Positions 5,013 through 32,167 of a stretch of DNA of 32,167 nt are shown in pieces. The notes under the pieces were generated by a model, which had not been told where the DNA came from, did no database searches, and worked only from the letters and a program-made list of their open reading frames with translations. How positions within the stretch are numbered: the first letter of the stretch is position 1; each line of letters opens with the position of its first letter. The stretch spans positions 1-32,167 of IMG/VR virus record IMGVR_UViG_3300008963_000017. One strand, written 5' to 3'. Source of the DNA: a virus. The position numbers and the translations under genes are program-made.

Positions 5013-5456
5013 ATGTCTTCAACAGAAAAAAACATATACAAACAGGTAAATGTGCCTACTAGCCACCAGCCTAGGCCTAACATTGAAAGTCGTGCGTACC
5101 GAGGAATTTCCACTGTAGATCCCGATGCAAACAATTGGGTATTGTATGATATTTCTCTTATCAAACAGGACCTACTAAATCACTTTAATATTCAAAAAGG
5201 AGAAAAGTTAAGCGACCCTAATTTCGGCACCATAATTTGGAGTGCCATTTACGAGCCGCTTACCGACATAGTCAAAGACGCAATAGTTAATGACGTTACA
5301 AGAATTGTTAACTATGATCCTAGAGTAAACGCAGAAAGCATTATAGTAGATCAATACGACAAAGGCATACAGGTTGAATGTACTTTGAGATATTTGAAGT
5401 ATAATATTTCCGAGTCCTTGAGAATTGCATTCGACGAAAATGCAGGAATTCTATAG
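5013..5456 (+). CDS. 25: Baseplate wedge protein gp25-like
   Basis: A 147-aa gp25/GPW-family wedge protein (T4 gp25 is 132 aa); this family is where sheath assembly begins on the baseplate. The first 45 residues are a polar arm. The core runs from about residue 48: LIKQDLLNHFNIQKGEKL, then DPNFGTIIWSAIYEPLTD, matching the T4 layout DPEFG...PLTAD, then VTRIVNYDPRVN, where D102-P103-R104 replaces the EPR triplet typical of gp25 and type VI TssE proteins. The C-terminal strands (VECTLRYLKYNISESLRIAF) complete the fold. The likely ribosome binding site GGAAGG (4996-5001) overlaps a promoter-like TTAAATAC. The gene lies between gp5-like and gp6-like genes, as in related phages. Confidence 0.88.
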   Translation: MSSTEKNIYKQVNVPTSHQPRPNIESRAYRGISTVDPDANNWVLYDISLIKQDLLNHFNIQKGEKLSDPNFGTIIWSAIYEPLTDIVKDAIVNDVTRIVNYDPRVNAESIIVDQYDKGIQVECTLRYLKYNISESLRIAFDENAGIL

Positions 5457-5509: not shown

Positions 5510-8500
5510 ATGTCTATAAGCAACAGACAAAATAGACTGTTAGTATCAGAAGACTGGAAAAGAGTTTATCAATCTTTCAGAAATGCTGAATTTCAGTCGT
5601 ATGATTTCGACAACTTAAGAAGGACTATGATAAACTATCTTCGGGAAAATTATCCTGAAGATTTCAACGACTACATAGAATCTTCTGAATACCTTGCACT
5701 AATAGACATGATGGCTTTTCTAGGCCAAAATATTGCGTTTAGGATAGACCTTAATGCTAGAGAGAACTATCTAGAACTGGCAGAAAGAAGAGAATCAGTC
5801 CTAAGACTAGCAAGATTGCTAAGTTATAATCCTAAGAGGAACCAAGCTGCTAATGGTTTGATGAAAATGGATTCTGTGTCTACCACAGAATCTGTTCGCG
5901 ACTCGAATGGTATAAATCTAGCAAGCCAGTCAATTGTATGGAACGATCCTTCAAACACAAACTGGAATGAACAATTTCAAAGAGTTCTAAACGCTGCTCT
6001 TCCTAACAACGGAAAAATCGGAAATCCAGAAAAAGCAAATAGAATAAACGGAGTTCCTACAGAACAGTATAAACTGAATGGTGCTAGTGATGCTGTACCA
6101 ACATTTAGTTTCACAAAAAATGTTGACGGACGGTCTCTTTTGTTCGAAGTTGTTTCTACAAGTATTCAAGACAACGCAATCTCTGAAGAAGCGCCGCTTC
6201 CCGGCAACAATTTTGGATTTCTCTTTAGAAATGACGGACAGGGACCAGCTAGTACAAATACAGGCTATTTCTGTCACTTTAGACAAGGATCTCTTGATCT
6301 TGGAGATTTTTCTATTGCAAATCCTAGTACAAACCAAATAGCTGCGATTGACTCTACAAATATAAACAACTCAGATGTTTGGCTTTATACTTTAGATGAA
6401 AACGGCAGTGAACAAGAGTTGTGGACCAAGGTAGAAGCTGTTGAAGGCAACAATGTTATCTATAACAGCGTTTCAAATGATCAAAGAAACATCTATTCAG
6501 TGTTAACCAGGGTAGACGATAGAATTAGTCTTATTTTTGCTGATGGCACTTTTGGCAATTTACCCGAAGGCAGCTTTAGAGTGTATTATAGGACCTCGGC
6601 AAGTTCACGTATCTTGATAAAACCTAGAGACATGAGAAATATAGCTGTAAGCATACCGTATATTTCTTCTAGCGGTAAAGCCGAAACTCTCACAATTACT
6701 CTTTCGCTTAAGTATTCCGTTGACAATGCAACACCATCTGAAACAAACGAAAGCATTCGGATAAATGCACCTTCTACCTATTATACTCAAAACAGAATGA
6801 TAACAGGTGAGGATTATCAGGTTGCTCCTCTCAGTCTTAACCAAGAAATAGTAAAGGTAAAATCAGTTAACAGATCTTCTAGTGGCATTTCAAGAAACTT
6901 CGATCTGCTGGATCCAAGCGGCAAATATAGCTCTACAAATATCTTTGCAAAAGACGGTGCTTTGTATAAAGAATTTGTTGACGAAAAGATTGAGTTTTCG
7001 TTTTCTAGTCTCACCGAAATTGAAGGCATTATATTAAATCGAATAGAGCCAATTTTTGAAGACAAAAGTGTATCTAACTTTTACTTTGATCGCTTTCCTC
7101 GTGTTATTGTGCGAGACTTGAATAATACATGGCAAGAAGAAATCAATCAAACAAATTCAAATTCTGGTTATCTTATAAATGCAGGCGGAAACAGAGCAAA
7201 CATAGCAGATTTTTCCTCTTCCAATATTAAATTTGTTAAGGAAAATTCACTGTTAAAATACGAAGCACCGCAAGGTTTTCACTTCATGGATGACGGAACA
7301 CTTATGCAAGGCCCAGCTGATCATCCTGGATCTACCACAGCTATTTGGACAAAAGTTCTTATTGCAGCAAACGACGGGACAGAAACTCAGGACAGCGGAG
7401 CAGGCGCTATTGTTTTAAATGACAAAGTTCCTACAGGTGCTGTGTTAGCAGAAATTATAACACCTTTGCCTAACAGCCTTACAGATGATGTTAGAGGACA
7501 GGCAATAGACCAAATATTTTCTTTTAGAACATTTGGCATAAGATATGACAGAGACATAGGCGAGTGGCAAATTATCACAGAAAACAATTTAGATCTTACT
7601 TCTGATTTTTCTACTGGCAAAACAGGTGATACTACAGATAATAGATTAGACGCAAGCTGGTTTGTTGCATTTGAAACAAGCGGCGATAATTACACAGTTA
7701 CCTATAGGACTCTCAAATATGTTTTTGAATCTGATAAAGAAGTTAGATTCTATTATGACAGTTCTGACAATGTATTTGATGTGCCGACCGGTAAAACCAT
7801 ACAAGATACTATCAGTGTTTTGAATATCAATACCAGACCAGACAGTCGTGAACCTCTCAATCAGAATTTTGATTGGGAAATTGTAAAAGAATACAGAGAC
7901 ACACTGGGATATATTGATTCCAAAAAAATAGAAGTTTCATTTTTTGATTCAGACTCAGACGGCATAATTGATAATCCAGACATCTTTCAACAGCTGGTTC
8001 AAGAATCTGTTAATACAAAAGACAAACTGGTGTTTTTACAATCTATAAGAACAAATGACGGAGTGAATGATTTTGTTTATGTTTCATCTGAAGATCTTAA
8101 CCTGACAGTTTTTGATCAAAAAACTGACTTTGAAAGATTACCAAAAAGTCAATTTGAAGACGGAGAACTTTTCTACTTCTTGACAGAAGATATCTTTGAA
8201 GATATTAACACTGCAACCGGGACTACCCAAATCAATGCAAATTATAGAGCAAGAATAGGCAGAGACGGACTGAGATTTAGATATTTCCATTCAGCAGATC
8301 AAAATGCAAGAATTGATCCAGGAGTTTCTAACATAATTGATATTTTCTTGTTAACAAGGGGATATGATTCTGAATTTAGAGATTGGTTGAGCGGAGAACG
8401 CGACATAAAACCGCTGCCTCCTAGCAATGACAGTTTGTTTACAAGCTTTGGACAGGACCTCAATAAAATTAAATCAATCAGCGATGACATCATTTATCAT

Positions 8501-8986
8501 CCTGTAAAATATAAAGTACTATTCGGTGAAAAAGCAGAACCAGAATTGCAGGCACAATTTAAAATTGTTAAAAATCCAGAGCTAGTTATAAACGATAACG
8601 AACTAAAATCCAAAATCATAAGATCTGTCAACAGATATTTTGCACTCGATAACTGGGAATTCGGAGACAAGTTTTACTTTTCAGAGCTTGCAGCTTATGT
8701 GGTAAACGAAATAGCCCCTGAGGTAGCAAGTTTTGTAATAGTTCCTGTTGCGGGAGATGCTGTGTTTGGTTCACTATATGAAATAAAATCAGAATCAGAC
8801 GAAATTTTTATATCTGGTGCAACAGTTGCGGATATAGAAATCATAGACGAAATTACAGCAACAACCCTGCGAGCAAATGGAAATATACTTACTGAAAGAT
8901 CGGTGTCTGTTACCGGGGTAACAAGCTCAACATTATCTACAAATGCTACAAGAAATACCGGAGGCATGAATACGAATGGCTACTAG
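5510..8986 (+). CDS. 6: Baseplate wedge protein gp6-like, baseplate J family, enlarged
   Basis: The main wedge protein that would form the continuous ring of the baseplate. Residues 1-120 carry the conserved start of the marine T4-like gp6 group (DWKRVYQSFRNAEFQSYDF, IDMMAFLGQNIAFRIDLNAR, ESVLRLARLLSYNPKR). Baseplate-J-type core signals follow: FADGTFGNLPEGSFRVYYR at about 344-362 and NAPSTYYTQNRMITGEDY at about 419-436. D813, D815, D817 and D821 form a DxDxDGxxD loop like those that bind calcium. The C-terminal domain at about 1030-1125 has YFALDNWEFGDKFYFSELAA and FGSLYEIKSESDEIFISGAT. At 1158 aa it is well above T4 gp6 (660 aa), and the extra length sits mainly in the middle (about 450-1000). 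The last 11 bases overlap the giant gene. Confidence 0.88.
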   Translation: MSISNRQNRLLVSEDWKRVYQSFRNAEFQSYDFDNLRRTMINYLRENYPEDFNDYIESSEYLALIDMMAFLGQNIAFRIDLNARENYLELAERRESVLRLARLLSYNPKRNQAANGLMKMDSVSTTESVRDSNGINLASQSIVWNDPSNTNWNEQFQRVLNAALPNNGKIGNPEKANRINGVPTEQYKLNGASDAVPTFSFTKNVDGRSLLFEVVSTSIQDNAISEEAPLPGNNFGFLFRNDGQGPASTNTGYFCHFRQGSLDLGDFSIANPSTNQIAAIDSTNINNSDVWLYTLDENGSEQELWTKVEAVEGNNVIYNSVSNDQRNIYSVLTRVDDRISLIFADGTFGNLPEGSFRVYYRTSASSRILIKPRDMRNIAVSIPYISSSGKAETLTITLSLKYSVDNATPSETNESIRINAPSTYYTQNRMITGEDYQVAPLSLNQEIVKVKSVNRSSSGISRNFDLLDPSGKYSSTNIFAKDGALYKEFVDEKIEFSFSSLTEIEGIILNRIEPIFEDKSVSNFYFDRFPRVIVRDLNNTWQEEINQTNSNSGYLINAGGNRANIADFSSSNIKFVKENSLLKYEAPQGFHFMDDGTLMQGPADHPGSTTAIWTKVLIAANDGTETQDSGAGAIVLNDKVPTGAVLAEIITPLPNSLTDDVRGQAIDQIFSFRTFGIRYDRDIGEWQIITENNLDLTSDFSTGKTGDTTDNRLDASWFVAFETSGDNYTVTYRTLKYVFESDKEVRFYYDSSDNVFDVPTGKTIQDTISVLNINTRPDSREPLNQNFDWEIVKEYRDTLGYIDSKKIEVSFFDSDSDGIIDNPDIFQQLVQESVNTKDKLVFLQSIRTNDGVNDFVYVSSEDLNLTVFDQKTDFERLPKSQFEDGELFYFLTEDIFEDINTATGTTQINANYRARIGRDGLRFRYFHSADQNARIDPGVSNIIDIFLLTRGYDSEFRDWLSGERDIKPLPPSNDSLFTSFGQDLNKIKSISDDIIYHPVKYKVLFGEKAEPELQAQFKIVKNPELVINDNELKSKIIRSVNRYFALDNWEFGDKFYFSELAAYVVNEIAPEVASFVIVPVAGDAVFGSLYEIKSESDEIFISGATVADIEIIDEITATTLRANGNILTERSVSVTGVTSSTLSTNATRNTGGMNTNGY

Positions 8987-24904: not shown

Positions 24905-25516
24905 ATGACAGAACTTAAAGATTACAACGGCGTGCTTTTACAGGGCCATATCAAAATACATGATCCTAATACTAAAGAGGTAATCATAGATAAGAGAAAT
25001 GCAATACATTATGAAAACATTTCAATTTCTCTTGCAGAAAGCCTTGCTAATCAGGGCAACGGGTGGATATCTGAGATGGCGTTCGGAAACGGCGGCACTA
25101 ATGTAAACGAGACAGGAATTATTACCTATCTTACACCTAACTCTACAGGAACAAATGCAGGTTTGTATAACGAAACATTTTCTAAAATTGTAGATGATAG
25201 ATCTGTAAATAATGTCGACCCTATTCGTAACAAGATAGAAACACGCCATCTTAGCGGAACCAATTACACAGATATACTAGTAACCTGTTTATTAGATTAC
25301 GGTGAGCCAAGCGGACAAGAGGCATTTGATACAGCTTCTAGCACAAAAAGCAATTTTGTATTCGACGAACTCGGACTAAGAGCATTTTCTCCTACCGGTG
25401 AAGGTAGGTTGCTTACTCATGTAATATTTCATCCTGTACAAAAGAGTCTAAACAGATTGATTCAGATTGATTACACTGTGCGTGTTCAGTCGTTATCAGG
25501 ATTTAATGAGGTTTAA
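24905..25516 (+). CDS. Virion structural protein, tail/fibre-associated (203 aa)
   Basis: A compact beta-rich protein without signal peptide or membrane segment. It begins with KDYNGVLLQGHIKIHDPNTK, has a central WISEMAFGNGGTNVNE followed by a Thr/Asn-rich strand region, and ends with FDELGLRAF, LLTHVIFHPVQKSLNR and IDYTVRVQSL. I associate that ending with a conserved small structural protein encoded beside the tail fibres of marine T4-like phages. The gene has its own promoter-like motif and is followed after two bases by the first fibre gene, so a role as a fibre-attachment or baseplate-edge protein is a reasonable inference. No enzymatic motif is seen. Confidence 0.55.
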   Translation: MTELKDYNGVLLQGHIKIHDPNTKEVIIDKRNAIHYENISISLAESLANQGNGWISEMAFGNGGTNVNETGIITYLTPNSTGTNAGLYNETFSKIVDDRSVNNVDPIRNKIETRHLSGTNYTDILVTCLLDYGEPSGQEAFDTASSTKSNFVFDELGLRAFSPTGEGRLLTHVIFHPVQKSLNRLIQIDYTVRVQSLSGFNEV

Positions 25517-25518
25517 CA

Positions 25519-27570
25519 ATGTCATATTCTATTCCTTTTACAGACCAATCTACCAACGGTACTATAGTAGTAGTCGATGGCACATTAAATACCGAAACAA
25601 GTCTTAAATTACCTGGCAGGAACTATACAGGATACGGCGGCGTAATAGCTGAAAATTTTTTACACCTTCTAGAGAATTTTTCAAGTCCGATAGAACCTCC
25701 CAGACCTGTTGAAGGACAGCTTTGGTACAATACCTCGGGCAACGGACAGCTTAATGTGTATGATGGAACAGGCTGGGTTCCGGCAGGAGGTCTTTTCAAA
25801 GCAACCTCAGAACCGGATGTTAGTAGAGCTCAGCAGGGCGATCTATGGGCCGATCAAGATAATCAACAACTTTATATATTTTCAGGCAGTGGATGGGTGC
25901 TTGTAGGACCTAGTTTTTCTGACGGATTATCCACAGGAGTTTCTCCGAGAACAATCACCGGGGCCGATAATCAAGAATATACGATAGTAATTGTAGAATT
26001 AAGAGCACAAATTATAGCAATTTATTCTAATTTTGAAATCAATCCCAATCCTGATATTCCAGGATTTGATTTAATTAAGCCAGGGTTTAATCTGTCTAGC
26101 CGAAACTCGACAGGCAGCGGAACTAACAAAATTTATGGAGTTTCAGAAAAATCAGAATCTCTCATTGTGAACAATATACCCGTTGACGGAGGAAATTTTT
26201 TACGAAGCGATGTAACGTCATCGACAGATTTTCCGTTAAATGTACAAAATGATGGCGGAATGTTGATTGGTACAGACGCTAACTTCGGCTTGTCAGTTGA
26301 AGGGCAAGCTAGTATTATACAGAACAGAATTGAAGGTTCAAATATAGATTTTAGAGTAAGATCTAGCGGTTCAAGTAGAACAGTTCTACGAGTAGATGCT
26401 ACACAAAGTGTGGGCATTAATAATGTATCGCCAGATGAGGCACTTGATGTTTCTGGAAACATTCAAACTGATTCAAGCGTACTAATCAATGGAACAGAAC
26501 AAAGCACTAGTATAAATAATGGATCTATTATCTCCAAAGGTGGCGCAGGCATTGCCGGCAACTTGAATGTAGGAGGAGAATCTAAGTTCAATGATTTATC
26601 TACATTTGCAAACCTAATACCAGATGGTAATAACACGAGAAATCTTGGTTCTTCTAGCTCTCAGTGGCAAAATGTTTTTGCAACACGCTTTGTTGGCAGA
26701 TTAGTAGGCACTGTTACCGGCAGAGTTATAGGAAATTCAGAAGCAGCCGATAGACTTACCTCGGCTACTACATTTAGTTTGACAGGAGATGTAACGTCTC
26801 CTGGACTAGTTTTTGATGGCCAACAAGGAGGTGCCACTAAAGAGTTTTCGACTACAATAAGCTCAGATTTTATAACGACAAAAGAACGCGCATCGTCAAG
26901 TCTAAGACAAGACGAAGTGCTTATTAATAGGACAACAGGTAGTACTGGTCTATATAAAATAAGAGTTTCGGATTTTTTTAGTAGGATACCTACTAATCCA
27001 CCAGGAGTCATTATGCCATATGCTGGCATAACAGCGCCTGCTGGATGGCTATTGTGCGACGGCGAAGAGTATAGTCAAACAGAATATGGCACTTTATTCA
27101 ATATTATAGGCTACAGTTTTGGAGGAAGGAATCAGATTGCAGAAACCGACTCACAAGGTAGAAGCTTAGCACAGGCAGGTCTTTTTAAAGTGCCTGATAT
27201 GAGAGGCAGAATGCCATTAGGTGCAGATAACATAGGCGGTAATAACGCAAATGTAGTTACAGGTGATTATGCAGAAGCAGTGGGTCAAAAGGGCGGCAGC
27301 GAAAGCACTATAATAAACATAACAAATCTGCCGGAGCACGAGCACGAACTAACAGACGGAGAAGGACGATCGTTCTTTGCATTAAGAGACGTTATTGATC
27401 TCACTCCTGCAGATAATGTAGAAACAAAAAACCTACCTTACGGCGAAGGACAAGGACAAGCACTGCCAAATACTGGCAGCATATTAACGAATGAAGATTT
27501 AGGAGATCCTCTGAACACAATGAATCCTACATTGACAGTTAGTTACATAATTTATACTGGAAGAAGCTAA
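25519..27570 (+). CDS. Tail fibre protein 1, with C-terminal tail collar domain
   Basis: A 683-aa fibre, first of three tandem paralogues. Residues 1-135 are the shared N-terminal part: DGTLNTETSLKLPGRNYTGY, ENFLHLLENF, GQLWYNT, YDGTGW, then a second GDLW...YIFSGSGW unit. The middle is a shaft with SVGINNVSPDEALDVSGNI, a stalk motif common in phage fibres, and a Thr/Val-rich stretch (LVGTVTGRVIGNS, FSLTGDVTSPG). From about residue 495 a phage tail-collar domain is clear: GVIMPYAGITAPAGWLLCDG and FKVPDMRGRMPLG. H607 and H609 in LPEHEHEL form an HxH motif of the type that binds metal in several fibre tips. In T4 such a domain is found in the short fibre gp12. AGG at 25509-25511 precedes the start. 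The next gene begins directly after the stop. Confidence 0.8.
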   Translation: MSYSIPFTDQSTNGTIVVVDGTLNTETSLKLPGRNYTGYGGVIAENFLHLLENFSSPIEPPRPVEGQLWYNTSGNGQLNVYDGTGWVPAGGLFKATSEPDVSRAQQGDLWADQDNQQLYIFSGSGWVLVGPSFSDGLSTGVSPRTITGADNQEYTIVIVELRAQIIAIYSNFEINPNPDIPGFDLIKPGFNLSSRNSTGSGTNKIYGVSEKSESLIVNNIPVDGGNFLRSDVTSSTDFPLNVQNDGGMLIGTDANFGLSVEGQASIIQNRIEGSNIDFRVRSSGSSRTVLRVDATQSVGINNVSPDEALDVSGNIQTDSSVLINGTEQSTSINNGSIISKGGAGIAGNLNVGGESKFNDLSTFANLIPDGNNTRNLGSSSSQWQNVFATRFVGRLVGTVTGRVIGNSEAADRLTSATTFSLTGDVTSPGLVFDGQQGGATKEFSTTISSDFITTKERASSSLRQDEVLINRTTGSTGLYKIRVSDFFSRIPTNPPGVIMPYAGITAPAGWLLCDGEEYSQTEYGTLFNIIGYSFGGRNQIAETDSQGRSLAQAGLFKVPDMRGRMPLGADNIGGNNANVVTGDYAEAVGQKGGSESTIINITNLPEHEHELTDGEGRSFFALRDVIDLTPADNVETKNLPYGEGQGQALPNTGSILTNEDLGDPLNTMNPTLTVSYIIYTGRS

Positions 27571-29472
27571 ATGGCGTATAGACTAAACAAAACAAATGGA
27601 GAACTATTAGTAGAACTTGCAGACGGAACTGTAGATACCACCAGTTCTGGAATCAGTCTTGTAGGAAGAAATTACAAAGGCTGGGGCGAAGCCTTTAACG
27701 AGAATTTTGTGCGCCTAACTGAAAATTTTGCTAACACCCTTCAGCCGGATAATCCTATAACCGGACAATTATGGTACGATACAAACGAAGCTAAACTGAA
27801 GGTTTACGACGGTACTGTATTTTTACCAGCGGGCTCTCCTGTAGTATCTGCAAATAGACCTGAACTTACTTTAGGAAATTTATGGATCGATAATTCGAAT
27901 CGACAGCTTTATTTTTACGACGGAAATCAAGACGGCGAATATACCTTAGTAGGACCAGACTACAACGTGTTTCAAGGTAAATCAGGATTTGAAGTTGTAT
28001 CAGTAATAGACATAACCGAAAGAAGTCGAACAATTCTTCTATTATACATAGGGAATAGTCTTTTTTCTGCTTTTACTGACGCTACGTTTAGATTAACAGA
28101 TACTCAAAAGATTGCAGGCTATCCAGATGATCCCAATGATACTGTTTTTCCAAGACGTCAGCTTTTTACCAAAGGATTTAATCTTATAGATGATTCTATT
28201 GTATTCGGCGGTGTAGCAGAAAACGCTATTTCATTGATAGACTCTCAGGGAAACACAAAAACAGCTTCTGATTTTTTATCATCTAGCGGAAATACAGAAA
28301 CTACTGGAACACTTACTATTCAAAATAGTTTCGGTTTATTGTTAGGCAATGGTTCTAGTTTGTATAGTCATTTGAGATTAGTCAATAATAACATCACTGT
28401 TTTAAGGACACTGCAAGAAAATACAGATATTGCGTTGCAAACAATTAGTGGAAGTAATTTTAGAAATGCTGTTTATATAAACGGCGCAACAGAAAGAGTC
28501 GGTATTTTTCAAACTAATCCTCAAGCAGAACTAGACGTTGAAGGTGATTTACGAGTATCACAAGATGCTGTAATATCAGGCAATCTTATAGTTAATGGAA
28601 ATGCTACGTATGTTAATGTTGAAGATCTCAGAATTCAAGATAAAAATATACAGCTAGGAATTCAAGACAACCAGCCAGCAGGAGATGATAGTTTTGTTGA
28701 CGGCGCAGGTATTACAGTAAAATCTTCAGATAGCGATAAAGAATTATTCTACGACAATGATACAGAAGCATGGACTTCTAATCTTGATTTTAATTTGTTA
28801 TCAAATCACAGTTACAAAATTGATGGCATTGTTGTGATGAACAAAACTGCAATAGGTGCAAGTGTTACAAAAGCACCGGGTTTAAATCAAATAGGTGAGC
28901 TCGAGTACCTTGATGTTGACAATTTAAGTTTTGACGGAAATACTATTTCAACAGAAACCGGAGGATTGATTATTGATCCTAAGGGCAACATTTCAGCAAG
29001 CTTCAACAAAATTACCGATTTAACAGAACCAGACAATGCACAAGATGCTGCTAACAAGGATTATGTAGATACTTCTACTAGATCAATACCGGTTGTACTT
29101 TCTCTAGACACTACAGGTCTCGATAATCCTAGTTCTATAAATCCTTACAATGATGTTTTGGGTATACTTGAATCAATATCTCCTGCAAGTGAAAAAGAAA
29201 ACGCAGTACCTGCTAGAATCCACTGTGTTTCTTATTTTGACACTCAGTTAACAGGTATTGATATATCAAATGCTGTTAATATCACGAATGAAAGCGTAAT
29301 CAAAGCACCGCTAAATGGCGAACCTATCGATGTTAACGATTATGAATCAGTATCAGTTGTGAAAGACAACGAATTTAACACTATTTCTACTGATTATAAT
29401 ATAACACCAAACAGACAGAATATGACCTTTGAAACAATTAATGGATCGTGGGTGTGGATTAGCACTGATTAG
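27571..29472 (+). CDS. Tail fibre protein 2 (paralogue with different tip)
   Basis: A 633-aa fibre. The N-terminal part is homologous to its neighbours: LADGTVDTTSSGISLVGRNY, ENFVRLTENF, GQLWYDT, VYDGTVFLPAG, then GNLWIDNSNRQLYFYDG. The shaft contains VGIFQTNPQAELDVEGDLRV and VISGNLIVNGNATYVNVEDL, both typical stalk repeats, then AQDAANKDYVDTSTRSIPVV, a common joint before a fibre tip. The last 130 residues (from about 505) are a separate domain ending MTFETINGSWVWISTD and show no similarity to the collar domain of fibre 1 or the end of fibre 3. GGAAG at 27559-27563 lies inside the preceding gene. It is probably trimeric, as most such fibres are. Confidence 0.72.
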   Translation: MAYRLNKTNGELLVELADGTVDTTSSGISLVGRNYKGWGEAFNENFVRLTENFANTLQPDNPITGQLWYDTNEAKLKVYDGTVFLPAGSPVVSANRPELTLGNLWIDNSNRQLYFYDGNQDGEYTLVGPDYNVFQGKSGFEVVSVIDITERSRTILLLYIGNSLFSAFTDATFRLTDTQKIAGYPDDPNDTVFPRRQLFTKGFNLIDDSIVFGGVAENAISLIDSQGNTKTASDFLSSSGNTETTGTLTIQNSFGLLLGNGSSLYSHLRLVNNNITVLRTLQENTDIALQTISGSNFRNAVYINGATERVGIFQTNPQAELDVEGDLRVSQDAVISGNLIVNGNATYVNVEDLRIQDKNIQLGIQDNQPAGDDSFVDGAGITVKSSDSDKELFYDNDTEAWTSNLDFNLLSNHSYKIDGIVVMNKTAIGASVTKAPGLNQIGELEYLDVDNLSFDGNTISTETGGLIIDPKGNISASFNKITDLTEPDNAQDAANKDYVDTSTRSIPVVLSLDTTGLDNPSSINPYNDVLGILESISPASEKENAVPARIHCVSYFDTQLTGIDISNAVNITNESVIKAPLNGEPIDVNDYESVSVVKDNEFNTISTDYNITPNRQNMTFETINGSWVWISTD

Positions 29473-29494
29473 AATTATCAAATAGGAAACAAGA

Positions 29495-31459
29495 ATGGCA
29501 TACACAATAAACAGATTTGATAGATCTATACTGACACAAGTCATAGACGGGACACTAGATAGAACCACTGACTTAAAATTGGTAGGAAAAAACTATGTTA
29601 GTTATGGCGAAGTGCAGAACGAAAATTTCCTATTTTTACTCGAAAACTTTTCTGGTACAAGCGAACCCGCTAGACCACTAAGCGGACAACTTTGGTACAA
29701 TACAGACGGATCACGATTGAAAATTTACAACGGTAACAAATGGGAGTCGCTAGCACTTCTAGAGTTATCAAATGAAGCTCCGTTGCAAGTCAAGGGCAGC
29801 CTATGGAAACCTGCTAACGATAATACACTAAAATTCTTTGATGGTACCAGACACCGCAATCTAGGAATACTAGAAGAATCTGCTCAAGAACCTGCACAAT
29901 CCGATATAGGAAATCTTTGGTGGAACACTAATGCCGGACAACTCTATACATATAACGGTTCTGAATGGGAGTTAATAGGGCCACAGAAAGCAGGTAATAA
30001 TATAACACGTCTTGTTAGCGAAGTTATTACAGACAACAACGACAACGATAACCCGGTTGTAGTATCATATGTTAACGGCGAAAGAGTTTTTATAATCAGT
30101 GATTCTGAATTTACCCTTGATGATTCGACACCTATTCAAGGGTTTGACGTAATTAAAAAGGGCATTACTCTTGTAAATTCTACAGATGAAAAAGGTATTA
30201 CTGATACTGATTCCGAATATTGGTTTTGGGGAACAGCATCAAACGCAAATTATCTAGACGGAATAACTAGCAGTCAGTTTTTGCGAAGCGACGAAGATAC
30301 TGCTCTGCAAGGCAATCTACAACTTGTAGATAATAACACAGGATTAGAGTGGAACGAAAGTGCTGTTACTGTAAAGAATCAAAACGATAAACTTGAGTTT
30401 AGTGTTCCGGATTCGGGTGAATTTCTGTTCTACTATAATGACTTTGGATCAAAAAATCAACTTCTGAAAATAGACACGCAAGAAGGAGTAAACGGCCTTA
30501 CTTTTAGAAATAACACAGTTTGGCACGCGGGTAACCAAGGATCGGGCACAGGCCTTGACGCAGATACACTAGATGGATTTGAAGCTAGCGATTTTCTACA
30601 GGCGAATGCAAAAGCAGTTGATTCTGACCTGTTAGATGGGTTTGATAGTACAGACTTTGTACGCTCCGCAGGCGATAAAATAACGGGAAATTTAGAAATA
30701 CAAGGTGATAAATTAGGCGTTTTATGGAATGCTAACAGTTTTAATTCTGCTGCAATTCGTTTTTACACTAACGACAATACAGAGTCTAGACTAGAATATC
30801 AAATCACTGACGATAATAATGAATTTTTTACTTGGAAGGCATACAATGCAAGTTTTACATCTAGCATAGAATTACTTAAATTAGATACTGTTGACACTAT
30901 AAACGGTTTAAAATTTAGAGGCAATACAGTATGGCACGAAGGTAATCAAGGCCCGGGTACAGGACTAAATGCTGATACACTTGACGGCGTAGAAGCCACA
31001 GGATTTTTACCAATTGACGGCAAAGCAGTAGATGCTGACAGAGCCGACAGAACACCTCTCGCTGATAGAGCGATACAAGCTGATAATGCTGGCACACTAG
31101 AAGGTTTTAATCAATCTGTATTCTATAGAAAGACCGGCGGACCGGTTTCGGACTTTGTTACACTTCATGCTGCCCCTGTTAATGATTTTCATGCTGCTAC
31201 AAAAAAATATGTAGACGACGAAGTTGATCGATTAGAAGATTTAATAAATGAAGACCCTTTATGGGCAGGTGCTACGACACTATCTAATGTTGTTGCTACT
31301 TATAGCAGTTTTCCTGTAGGGACTAGAGTGTCTTTTTGGGATGAGCGTAACTACAGTAGGCCTGCAAATTCTAATGGCGGCTCGGTACATATATCTGATA
31401 GATATCGTAGAACAGTTAAAAAGGCAGGACCCAGTTCATGGGTAGATATAGGAGGCTAG
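29495..31459 (+). CDS. Tail fibre protein 3 (paralogue with LDGF repeats)
   Basis: A 654-aa fibre. The shared N-terminal part is VIDGTLDRTTDLKLVGKNY, ENFLFLLENF and GQLWYNT, followed by three GxLW...Y/F-x-G units rather than two (GQLWYNTDGSRLKIYNG, GSLWKPANDNTLKFFDG, GNLWWNTNAGQLYTYNG). Residues about 250-545 carry five LDGF-type motifs (YLDGITSSQFL, TLDGFEASDFL, LLDGFDSTDFV, TLDGVEATGFL, TLEGFNQSVFY) and two 137-residue units. ATKKYVDDEVDRLEDLI (about 569-585) is a fibre joint. The tip, about 70 residues, ends in a basic stretch (SDRYRRTVKKAGPSSWVDIG). AGGA at 29484-29487 precedes the start after a 22-base gap. No collar or peptidase S74 domain was found. Confidence 0.74.
   Translation: MAYTINRFDRSILTQVIDGTLDRTTDLKLVGKNYVSYGEVQNENFLFLLENFSGTSEPARPLSGQLWYNTDGSRLKIYNGNKWESLALLELSNEAPLQVKGSLWKPANDNTLKFFDGTRHRNLGILEESAQEPAQSDIGNLWWNTNAGQLYTYNGSEWELIGPQKAGNNITRLVSEVITDNNDNDNPVVVSYVNGERVFIISDSEFTLDDSTPIQGFDVIKKGITLVNSTDEKGITDTDSEYWFWGTASNANYLDGITSSQFLRSDEDTALQGNLQLVDNNTGLEWNESAVTVKNQNDKLEFSVPDSGEFLFYYNDFGSKNQLLKIDTQEGVNGLTFRNNTVWHAGNQGSGTGLDADTLDGFEASDFLQANAKAVDSDLLDGFDSTDFVRSAGDKITGNLEIQGDKLGVLWNANSFNSAAIRFYTNDNTESRLEYQITDDNNEFFTWKAYNASFTSSIELLKLDTVDTINGLKFRGNTVWHEGNQGPGTGLNADTLDGVEATGFLPIDGKAVDADRADRTPLADRAIQADNAGTLEGFNQSVFYRKTGGPVSDFVTLHAAPVNDFHAATKKYVDDEVDRLEDLINEDPLWAGATTLSNVVATYSSFPVGTRVSFWDERNYSRPANSNGGSVHISDRYRRTVKKAGPSSWVDIGG
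30249..31125 (+). repeat. LDGF motifs and two 137-codon shaft repeats in fibre 3
   Basis: NTVWHAGNQGSGTGLDADTL near 30512 and NTVWHEGNQGPGTGLNADTL near 30923 lie 411 bases (137 codons) apart. Each is preceded by a GNL...WN...LLK-D-INGL-F unit and followed by LDG motifs. Five LDGF-like motifs occur from 30249 to 31125. The two DNA copies differ at many third positions, so the duplication is old. Confidence 0.75.
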
Positions 31460-31460
31460 A

Positions 31461-31982
31461 ATGAGCGATTTAGAAAGAACAACAGCACTGGCCCAGTTTA
31501 ATAAGTTAAACGGAAAATTTACAACCGTTTTAGGCATGGTAGATGACATTTCTATGCTTAATCATGATTTTTATAACTATCAAGAAGTAGAGATAGATTT
31601 GTACAACGAAACTGTGATAGGAGATTATCACAATTTTGAAATTGTAAATATAAATGAAGGTAACCTCGAAATTACTGAGGATATGCTTAACGAATTAGCA
31701 AGAGATAAAATCGTTAAGGAATACCCAATAGAAAGACAGCTTACAGTTTTAGGTAAAACTCTAGAAAAAATTGCCGATTCGTTGTCATTGGAAGACATAG
31801 ATGATATTAAAGAGATGAATGATTACATCGATGAAGTAAAACGTGTAAATTCGATTCGAAAAGAATTCTATAAAAACAATCCTGATTACGACTATAAGAG
31901 CACAGAAGATTTAGATAGATTAATAAGTGAAAAATATGAAGGAAGTATCCAAGCATACAATGGAGAATTTACAAGTTTATAA
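31461..31982 (+). CDS. Unrecognised 173-aa protein after the fibre genes
   Basis: The product is acidic and mostly helical in appearance, with no signal peptide, membrane segment or catalytic motif. Residues 1-40 are polar with KLNGKFTTVLGMVDDISML. Residues about 75-140 are rich in charged residues and contain EYPIERQLTVLGKTLEKIAD and MNDYIDEVKRVNSIRKEF, possibly a coiled coil. The start follows a very strong site (AGGAGG, 31450-31455) and lies one base after the fibre 3 stop, so it is co-translated with the fibre. Position and helical, acidic make-up would fit a fibre assembly chaperone, but that is a guess from context; no family was recognised. Confidence 0.6.
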   Translation: MSDLERTTALAQFNKLNGKFTTVLGMVDDISMLNHDFYNYQEVEIDLYNETVIGDYHNFEIVNINEGNLEITEDMLNELARDKIVKEYPIERQLTVLGKTLEKIADSLSLEDIDDIKEMNDYIDEVKRVNSIRKEFYKNNPDYDYKSTEDLDRLISEKYEGSIQAYNGEFTSL

Positions 31983-32167
31983 AATTTACGAATACGATGT
32001 TGTAGATTCGGTATTCGACAAAATTTCCAAATTGGAAGAGCCTAGATGGATTGAGAGAAAATATTTGCAGCCAGGAAGAGCTGTAAACAATTCTCACTGT
32101 AGGTATGATTATTGTAATTTTGTTCAAATGCCGCAGACTCTACAAGAATTTTTTAAAACTATTGCGC
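31936..32167 (+). CDS. Partial gene of unknown function running off the right end
   Basis: An open frame with no stop for 77 codons, cut by the window edge. From ATG at 31936 it overlaps the 173-aa gene by 47 bases in another frame. A second ATG at 31960, after AAGGAAG (31939-31945), is also possible and gives a start reading MENLQVYKIYEYDVV. Visible features are LEEPRWIERKYLQPG and two Cys in NNSHCRYDYCNF. Too little is present to name it. The charge pattern and continued + strand packing support a real gene. Confidence 0.5.
   Translation, partial: MKEVSKHTMENLQVYKIYEYDVVDSVFDKISKLEEPRWIERKYLQPGRAVNNSHCRYDYCNFVQMPQTLQEFFKTIA

Follow-up and report, generated by a model that had tools for sequence, protein, structure and literature searches.

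A tandem fibre-gene array with one shared N-terminal base and a putative tip-exchange slot in a jumbo-phage-like virus fragment

Introduction

Do neighbouring phage fibre genes that begin alike and end differently act as interchangeable carriers of variable tips, or does each have its own place and task? The question is raised by F1, F2 and F3, three tandem genes in IMG/VR virus record IMGVR_UViG_3300008963_000017, a linear record whose full 32,167 bp we analysed and refer to as the window. The first-pass annotation of this DNA had described them as a natural multi-tip set on one base, possibly allowing branched or mixed fibres and a broader choice of hosts. We think it probable that they belong to a baseplate-linked array of paralogous trimeric fibres in which the tips of three gene classes (A, B and Z) are fixed and class M, represented here by F3, is an exchange slot. 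Among open PMC papers we found none on this array.

F1, F2 and F3 share an N-terminal base

The three genes are co-directional and tightly packed, with a gap of 0 bp between F1 and F2 and of 22 bp between F2 and F3; their coordinates, order and strand proved exact when checked. Their features are listed below, with amino acid (aa) ranges and E values from Pfam or from a hidden Markov model (HMM) of the base.

25519..27570, + strand: F1, 683 aa, class A fibre or pin gene, collar-bearing, predicted constant slot
25519..25779, + strand: F1 base module (aa 1-87), base HMM E 3e-33
27004..27126, + strand: F1 Phage Tail Collar domain (aa 496-536), PF07484 E 1.3e-14
27571..29472, + strand: F2, 633 aa, class B fibre gene, predicted constant slot
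27571..27822, + strand: F2 base module (aa 1-84), base HMM E 4e-33
29071..29469, + strand: F2 tip (aa 501-633)
29495..31459, + strand: F3, 654 aa, class M fibre gene, predicted exchange slot
29495..29746, + strand: F3 base module (aa 1-84), base HMM E 5e-35
29873..29971, + strand: additional GxLWY hairpin unit of F3 (aa 127-159)

Pairwise BLASTP aligned the N-terminal parts of all three proteins (F1/F2, 29% over 335 columns, E 4e-31; F1/F3, 29% over 350 columns, E 2e-28; F2/F3, 30% over 297 columns, E 2e-24) and found only chance-level matches beyond them, and the 84-column base HMM matched exactly F1, F2 and F3 and no other open reading frame (ORF) of the window. The similarity is tight over about 85 residues, continues more loosely to about residues 230-260 through GxLWY-type hairpins (F3 has one unit more than F1 and F2) and a second block, and then fades. 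By these E values the common base is far beyond chance, and the earlier description of one shared base followed by divergence holds, as does that of a collar in the first gene only, PF07484 being found in F1 alone among the three. The bases fit a module DGT..G[RK]NY..ENF..ENF..GQLWY (HMM E below 1e-18; the family overlaps phrog_15511, phrog_14394 and phrog_8309); the motif first proposed was right as an overall module but not in every letter, as F3 reads GKNY rather than GRNY and F2 reads LTENF.

Arrays in related phages and sorting of the bases by gene position

Scans with F1 and F2 yielded 78 and 7 loci of relatives (denoted by L-numbers), and the base HMM was then run on their ORFs. A base gene was present at 85 loci, the window counted and its own record copies not, and 73 were kept after 12 distant or named-record loci had been left out. 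Thirty of these carry four base genes (A, B, M and Z) and 16 carry three (A, B and Z), the other 27, the window among them, being cut, interrupted or not decidable; with near-identical A proteins removed there were 17 four-gene and 13 three-gene arrays. L081 has five tandem base genes, and the 353-kb record of L021 has four strong base matches in the array and one weak match (E 2e-5) elsewhere. The window displays A, B and M. At L139 an F3-type tip is followed by three helper genes and then by a fourth base gene of 505 aa, and the window stops inside the first of the two small genes that precede this fourth fibre. As L139 goes on to a fourth fibre the window probably does too, so that 'three' is what the linear fragment shows and is probably a truncation, with a Z fibre predicted just past the contig end. 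At two loci the second base gene is seemingly interrupted, with an open frame of 86-87 aa (L029 8565-10427, L030 10085-11881), while close relatives are intact; a frameshift, an assembly error or a real loss could each account for this.

A tree of 129 bases over 86 columns, in which many forks are unresolved, showed 18 changes of position label against a mean of 67.0 in shuffles, none of the 200 shuffles being as low. Most first-position bases (30/40) fall in a group of their own (support 81), as do 35/42 second-position bases (support 92, drawn open), and the remaining ones of both kinds are mostly from distant phages. The F3 base pairs with the third gene of L005 (96), and the fourth gene of L005 groups with the last genes of other phages. 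Eleven alignment columns, one of them an indel, separate the classes with at least 80% agreement within each; base position 44, for example, is A in class A and N in B and Z. As the bases sort by gene position, F1-F3 are by this tree old, specialised paralogues. The genes might instead encode three equivalent bases that compete for one kind of baseplate site and give each virion a random mixture of tips, as the shared base family and the co-directional, nearly back-to-back arrangement would allow. The sorting by position over many phages and the class-specific residues speak for fixed separate roles rather than such interchangeable, 'mixed' fibres, and equivalent sites would predict gene conversion or tip traffic among the slots.

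Tip replacement is confined to class M at high base identity

Among intact array genes the F1 tip had 79 matches, the F2 tip 23 (itself included) and the last-gene tip of L005, a usual last fibre, 66, whereas the F3 tip and the third-gene tip of L005 each had 1 match, itself. With near-copies removed, 40, 38, 24 and 29 sequences were kept of the 67, 57, 38 and 45 in classes A, B, M and Z respectively. A tip was scored as replaced where base identity was at least 0.75 and tip identity below 0.30; unrelated tips gave a mean score of 0.18 and a maximum of 0.27 in 200 draws. Replaced tips were found in 16 of 57 M pairs and in none of the pairs of the other classes (A 0/209, B 0/119, Z 0/114). The 16 M pairs reduce to four contrasts: F3 against L005; L048-L050 against L046, L054, L065 and L076; L033 against L036; and L057 and L073 against L040. 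In three of these the breakpoints were located, F3 and L005 being alike to about aa 580, L048 and L046 to about aa 1250, and L033 and L036 to about aa 350. The M proteins of L048 and L046 are unrelated past that residue, yet their A tips are 94% identical. At base identities of 0.45-0.75 tips below 0.30 occur in all classes (at frequencies of 0.14-0.17 in A, 0.16-0.24 in Z, 0.29-0.91 in B and 0.85-0.92 in M), so the claim concerns recent replacement. The lack of replaced tips in A, B and Z where base identity is high also tells against the random mixture of tips, which we regard as improbable.

Within one closely related group the ratio of nonsynonymous to synonymous substitution (dN/dS) was 0.04-0.07 for bases and 0.10-0.17 for tips, values that are rough as dS was high, and the tip exceeded the shaft only in class Z (0.17 versus 0.13). 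Positive selection on the tips, with dN/dS at 0.04-0.17 throughout, was not seen, and equal hypervariability of all tips is rejected for F1 and F2 by their match counts and the absence of replaced pairs. Pfam searches of eight M or last genes from relatives did not usefully identify their tips. The first-pass annotation therefore needs to be narrowed: one base does carry several tips, of which one has been replaced relative to relatives, but not all of them change; faster change is true of the F3 slot only, as replacement and not as point mutation; and the tips of F1 and F2 are co-inherited among relatives, an outcome that the annotation itself had named as refuting and that thus holds for two of the three genes, whereas the F3 slot swaps its tip.

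Alternative tips side by side could also suggest a phase-variable or cassette-switch system that expresses one tip at a time. Against this, every gene is complete with a base and a start. In a test for a switch of the Mu G type no long inverted repeats were found around the tips (the longest inverted pair, 23 nt at 83%, does not flank them), promoter-like sites are about as many as chance predicts (25 against 23.4) and the homologues in phage PA5oct (below) coexist in virions; we therefore give such a switch hardly any credence.

The F3 tip recurs with putative helper genes downstream

The end of F3 and the genes behind it are annotated as follows.

31190..31216, + strand: F3 joint HAATKKYVD (aa 566-574), past which F3 and its L005 orthologue are unrelated
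31253..31456, + strand: F3 tip (aa 587-654), unrelated to the L005 tip
31461..31982, + strand: g31461, 173 aa, putative helper gene recurring with the F3 tip, phrog_13209
31960..32166, + strand: start of a second putative helper ORF, cut by the contig end; homologue of a 158-aa L139 gene, 2OG-Fe(II)-oxygenase-like (sub-threshold)

Of these two relatives, L005 is closer to the window (76% identity in F1, 64% in F2) and L139 more distant (48% in F2). The likeness of F3 to its L005 orthologue extends to about residue 580, a little beyond the joint, after which the two are unrelated; no homologue of g31461 was found in the L005 locus. L139, by comparison, matches the window in the F3 tip (73.5% over 68 residues), in g31461 (72% over 173) and in the ORF at the window end (55% over 69), the next gene in L139 being one of 151 aa. 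Since the more distant phage has the same tip and helpers, the simplest reading of these comparisons is that the cassette is ancestral and that the L005 lineage replaced its tip and lost the helpers. Horizontal transfer between the window and L139 lineages was considered for the common tip and is not needed, an ancestral cassette being sufficient.

Homologues of g31461 were found in 72 of 50,697 phage records, all of them Pseudomonas phages. In PhiPA3 g31461 matches gp155 (E 6e-18). The three L139 helper genes recur in the same order behind the tail-fibre genes of PhiPA3 (E 5e-21, 6e-24 and 2e-30) and of Milchi (E 3e-28, 3e-22 and 4e-7). In the phiKZ-like PhiPA3 three tandem paralogous virion proteins, gp152-gp154, are followed by gp155 and two homologous helper genes, a layout resembling that of the window, but the fibres themselves are unrelated: the base HMM matched 0/66 ORFs of L137 (E limit 0.01) and had no match in the PhiPA3 and Milchi stretches, and F3 matched none of the PhiPA3 ORFs at E 0.5. 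The F3 tip gave 6 records at E 2-10 in the 50,697 phage records, which we treat as chance. In small sets it matched Milchi CDS0193 (29% over 65 aa, E 0.001-0.004), a hint only, which was recovered neither by a two-sequence profile nor in the 50,697-record search.

Other M tips may also travel with a small gene. Six M loci (L037, L040, L043 and L048-L050) with another tip family have a gene of 122-134 aa directly after the M gene, and the two of these that were scanned matched phrog_8716 (tail fiber protein) and, more weakly, phrog_188 (tail fiber assembly). A 158-aa gene of L044 matches phrog_13209 as g31461 does; direct BLAST between the two fails (E 1.9), though the L139 homologue of g31461 matches the L044 gene at E 1e-5. 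The helper genes may assist folding of the F3 tip or modify it. The second one is similar to 2OG-Fe(II) oxygenases, with a PF13532 match (E 9e-5) that falls short of the curated cut-off. As separate observations, the helper trio (phrog_13209, oxygenase-like and a third small protein) is conserved in order behind unrelated tail fibres in three phage groups (L139 4989-6435, L137 6974-8488, L138 7010-8489), and the label 'DNA endonuclease' on the second helper gene looks doubtful.

Genomic context and the base module in named phages

The fibre run is placed after genes of baseplate type.

5013-5456: gp25-like gene, Pfam GPW_gp25 E 6.2e-8
5510-8986: gp6-like baseplate wedge gene, phrog_10646, 1016 bits
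8976-24881: ORF of 5301 aa in the gp7 position, between the gp6-like gene and the 203-aa gene
24905..25516, + strand: g24905, 203 aa, conserved neighbour, phrog_11259, possible socket or adaptor

The gp6-like protein is closest to those of the jumbo myoviruses Phosso, Atu_ph07, SCTP-2, GAP32, RaK2 and 121Q (about 32-36% identity), and the record of one relative is 353,123 bp long; on these two grounds the window is a fragment of a jumbo-phage-like genome. The phage would be a jumbo myovirus related in a wider sense to RaK2 and PA5oct. Matches to g24905 comprised 81 ORFs (the window's own copies included), 37 of them non-redundant. In the window lineage, RaK2, 121Q, Atu_ph07 and PA5oct a g24905 homologue stands before the first of the base genes, the RaK2 counterpart being placed by gene order and size. 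Unlike the window, RaK2 (ORF065), 121Q (gene 577) and Atu_ph07 (AUZ94958) have the same base as a single copy, one base gene behind the g24905 homologue in the stretches read.

The Pseudomonas phages PA5oct (gp357-gp360) and MIJ3 (gp384-gp387), both Wroclawvirus, share the window's order of gp6, giant gene, small ORF, gene of about 201 aa and base genes. Each carries this base in a tandem pair of genes, of which the second has a YADLAE motif. The first base gene of PA5oct ends in a T4 Gp10_C domain (E 9.8e-24) where F1 has a Pfam Collar, and the two PA5oct bases pair with each other in the tree and so probably stem from a separate duplication. The PA5oct record marks gp357 to gp360 as found by electrospray ionization tandem mass spectrometry (no base was found in gp360 by the HMM), and MIJ3 gp386, a base gene that corresponds to PA5oct gp358 in its position, its size and its match to the base, was detected in purified virions by liquid chromatography-tandem mass spectrometry (PMC6892783). 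The PA5oct and MIJ3 homologues are thus virion proteins.

Stenotrophomonas phage RAS14 and Xanthomonas phage XacN1 have more slots than the window, six tandem genes each with the same base and differing tips (RAS14, L140 12091-20768; XacN1 ORF237-ORF232, L142 9176-18232), and these are not beside gp6. Between the two phages slots 1, 2, 3 and 6 align nearly full-length, and in slots 4 and 5 the alignment is limited to some 270 residues at the N-terminus, a pattern of conserved and variable slots that, as aligned, is similar to that of the window lineage. The array genes are annotated as hypothetical, except one RAS14 gene that is annotated as a D-alanyl-D-alanine carboxypeptidase, and according to the paper on XacN1 (PMC5852040) the search for a homologue of a tail fibre had found none.

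In T4 the genes for gp9-gp12 come after gp6-gp7-gp8, and gp12 has a collar-type domain. These proteins are peripheral baseplate trimers of common origin encoded by sequential genes, of which those for gp10-gp12 are co-transcribed and encode proteins with a common fold that interact at the baseplate periphery (PMC3004832). The window layout works like that of gp10-gp12; no sequence link between the window base and the T4 proteins was found. F1-F3 could accordingly be mainly structural baseplate parts of the gp9-gp12 kind, none or one of which contacts a receptor, with C-termini diverged by structural specialisation; the position after the gp25-like, gp6-like and giant genes, the collar in F1, the Gp10_C domain in its PA5oct counterpart and the organisation of gp10-gp12 would all suit this. 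What does not suit it is that the M tip has been replaced wholesale several times, in some lineages together with fibre-assembly-like genes. Receptor-binding tips commonly undergo such replacement and purely structural parts seldom do, and we judge the mainly structural account unlikely.

Structure and fold searches

A model of F1 residues 1-235 (110 sequences) reached a predicted local distance difference test score (pLDDT) of 77 and a predicted template modelling score of 0.47, and a fold search with it gave no match in the PDB at E <= 0.001. The best rows by VIA-align were collagen trimerisation domains (Z below 6), then Mtd and phage tailspike and baseplate proteins (Z below 4): F1 residues 90-138 resemble collagen XV/XVIII trimerisation domains weakly (Z 5.7, 49 residues aligned, root-mean-square deviation 3.4) and the Mtd N-terminus (Z 3.5). 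The rows listed do not include T4 gp9-gp12, an absence that says nothing against a common fold. Sequence searches found no solved relatives of F1 or g24905, and a peroxiredoxin that appeared as a PDB relative of the base profile was a chance match only. In a viral library the same N-terminus is joined to proteins of differing names: collar, Gp10_C, collagen, C1q and auto-processing chaperone (E 6e-14 to 1.5e-3). The g24905 model (pLDDT 73) had no clear match to a protein of known function; its best fold match, a PAS domain (Z 5.8), is unrelated, and that to phiKZ gp139 by VIA-align is weak (Z 4.6).

These searches bear on whether the three proteins form one branched complex, in which one protein docks and bears the others, as in Ackermannviridae and CBA120 or in the long fibres of RaK2. 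Adjacent fibres with related N-termini would be expected of it, and the base showed weak fold matches to the N-terminus of the branching protein TSP4 of CBA120 (Foldseek E 0.12, VIA-align Z 2.7) and to CBA120 TSP3 (Z 3.8). The Ackermannviridae TSP1-4 and CBA120 systems also have several receptor-binding proteins with modular exchange (PMC10253068), but there one organiser carries XD domains and the tips are enzymatic, neither of which was recognised in the window. One and the same base is present in all three window proteins, instead of a single anchor together with branching domains, and F1-F3 had no match at Pfam thresholds to T4 gp10-like XD branching domains or to polysaccharide-depolymerase tips, domains of the latter kind being ones that sequence models can miss. 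RaK2, moreover, has its one base gene in the baseplate-gene region, apart from its branched long fibres, which are a separate gene set, gp526-534 (PMC10253068; PMC3622015). The chance that F1-F3 form a branched complex of this sort therefore seems small.

Proposed function of the array

In the arrangement that we favour, the fibre trimers would all dock by one kind of N-terminal module, each at a baseplate site of its own, the base perhaps contacting the baseplate itself or the 203-aa neighbour. Slots A (F1, collar or pin), B (F2) and the usual last slot Z would carry fixed tips. In the facultative slot M (F3) recombination at a conserved joint would exchange the C-terminal tip, and in several lineages one or more helper genes immediately behind it would be exchanged as well (in the window g31461 and at least one further gene). 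F1, which bears a collar and has a Gp10_C-bearing counterpart in PA5oct, would most likely be part of a pin or short fibre, F2 a second constant fibre and F3 an exchangeable receptor tip, possibly the one that sets host range, with helpers that fold or modify it.

Several points weigh against this interpretation. Class M is a positional class and not a single clade of the base tree, seven three-gene arrays (L023, L039, L045, L046, L054, L065 and L076) were assigned to it by hand, and related phages do not give independent pairs. In the L020/L021 group the M genes retain one tip family, so the slot is not always in flux, and the M tip of L005 comes without a helper gene. The base was modelled as a monomer, with middling confidence, and none of its solved relatives is convincing; g31461 is a putative helper, and the window phage is known here from sequence alone.

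A wider proposal is offered tentatively and may well prove wrong. Jumbo myoviruses of several groups might use one unnamed docking module in arrays of 1-6 fibres, most with fixed tips and 1-2 acting as exchange ports, into which tips enter with helpers, one set of them common to phiKZ-like and Milchi-like phages; the helper enzymes may modify the tip, the whole forming one travelling cassette. Apart from this wider proposal, the array offers a layout that can be tested, in which a fixed structural fibre of a jumbo phage is told from an exchange port for host recognition, and it draws attention to overlooked fibre arrays in XacN1 and RAS14 and to a fibre-associated helper cassette across unrelated jumbo phages, the phiKZ group included.

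Further observations

The 5301-aa ORF of the window is longer than its counterparts in PA5oct (3857 aa), Atu_ph07 (4449 aa) and RaK2 (3326 aa). A strong terminator-like hairpin lies inside F1 (26783-26803, + strand), and terminator-like sites in the region number 9 against 3.9 (sd 2.3) expected. Downstream of the array at three loci (L139 9493-10516, L083 12809-14522 and L018 17062-17853) there are ORFs that look, by eye only, to be of sugar-transferase type.

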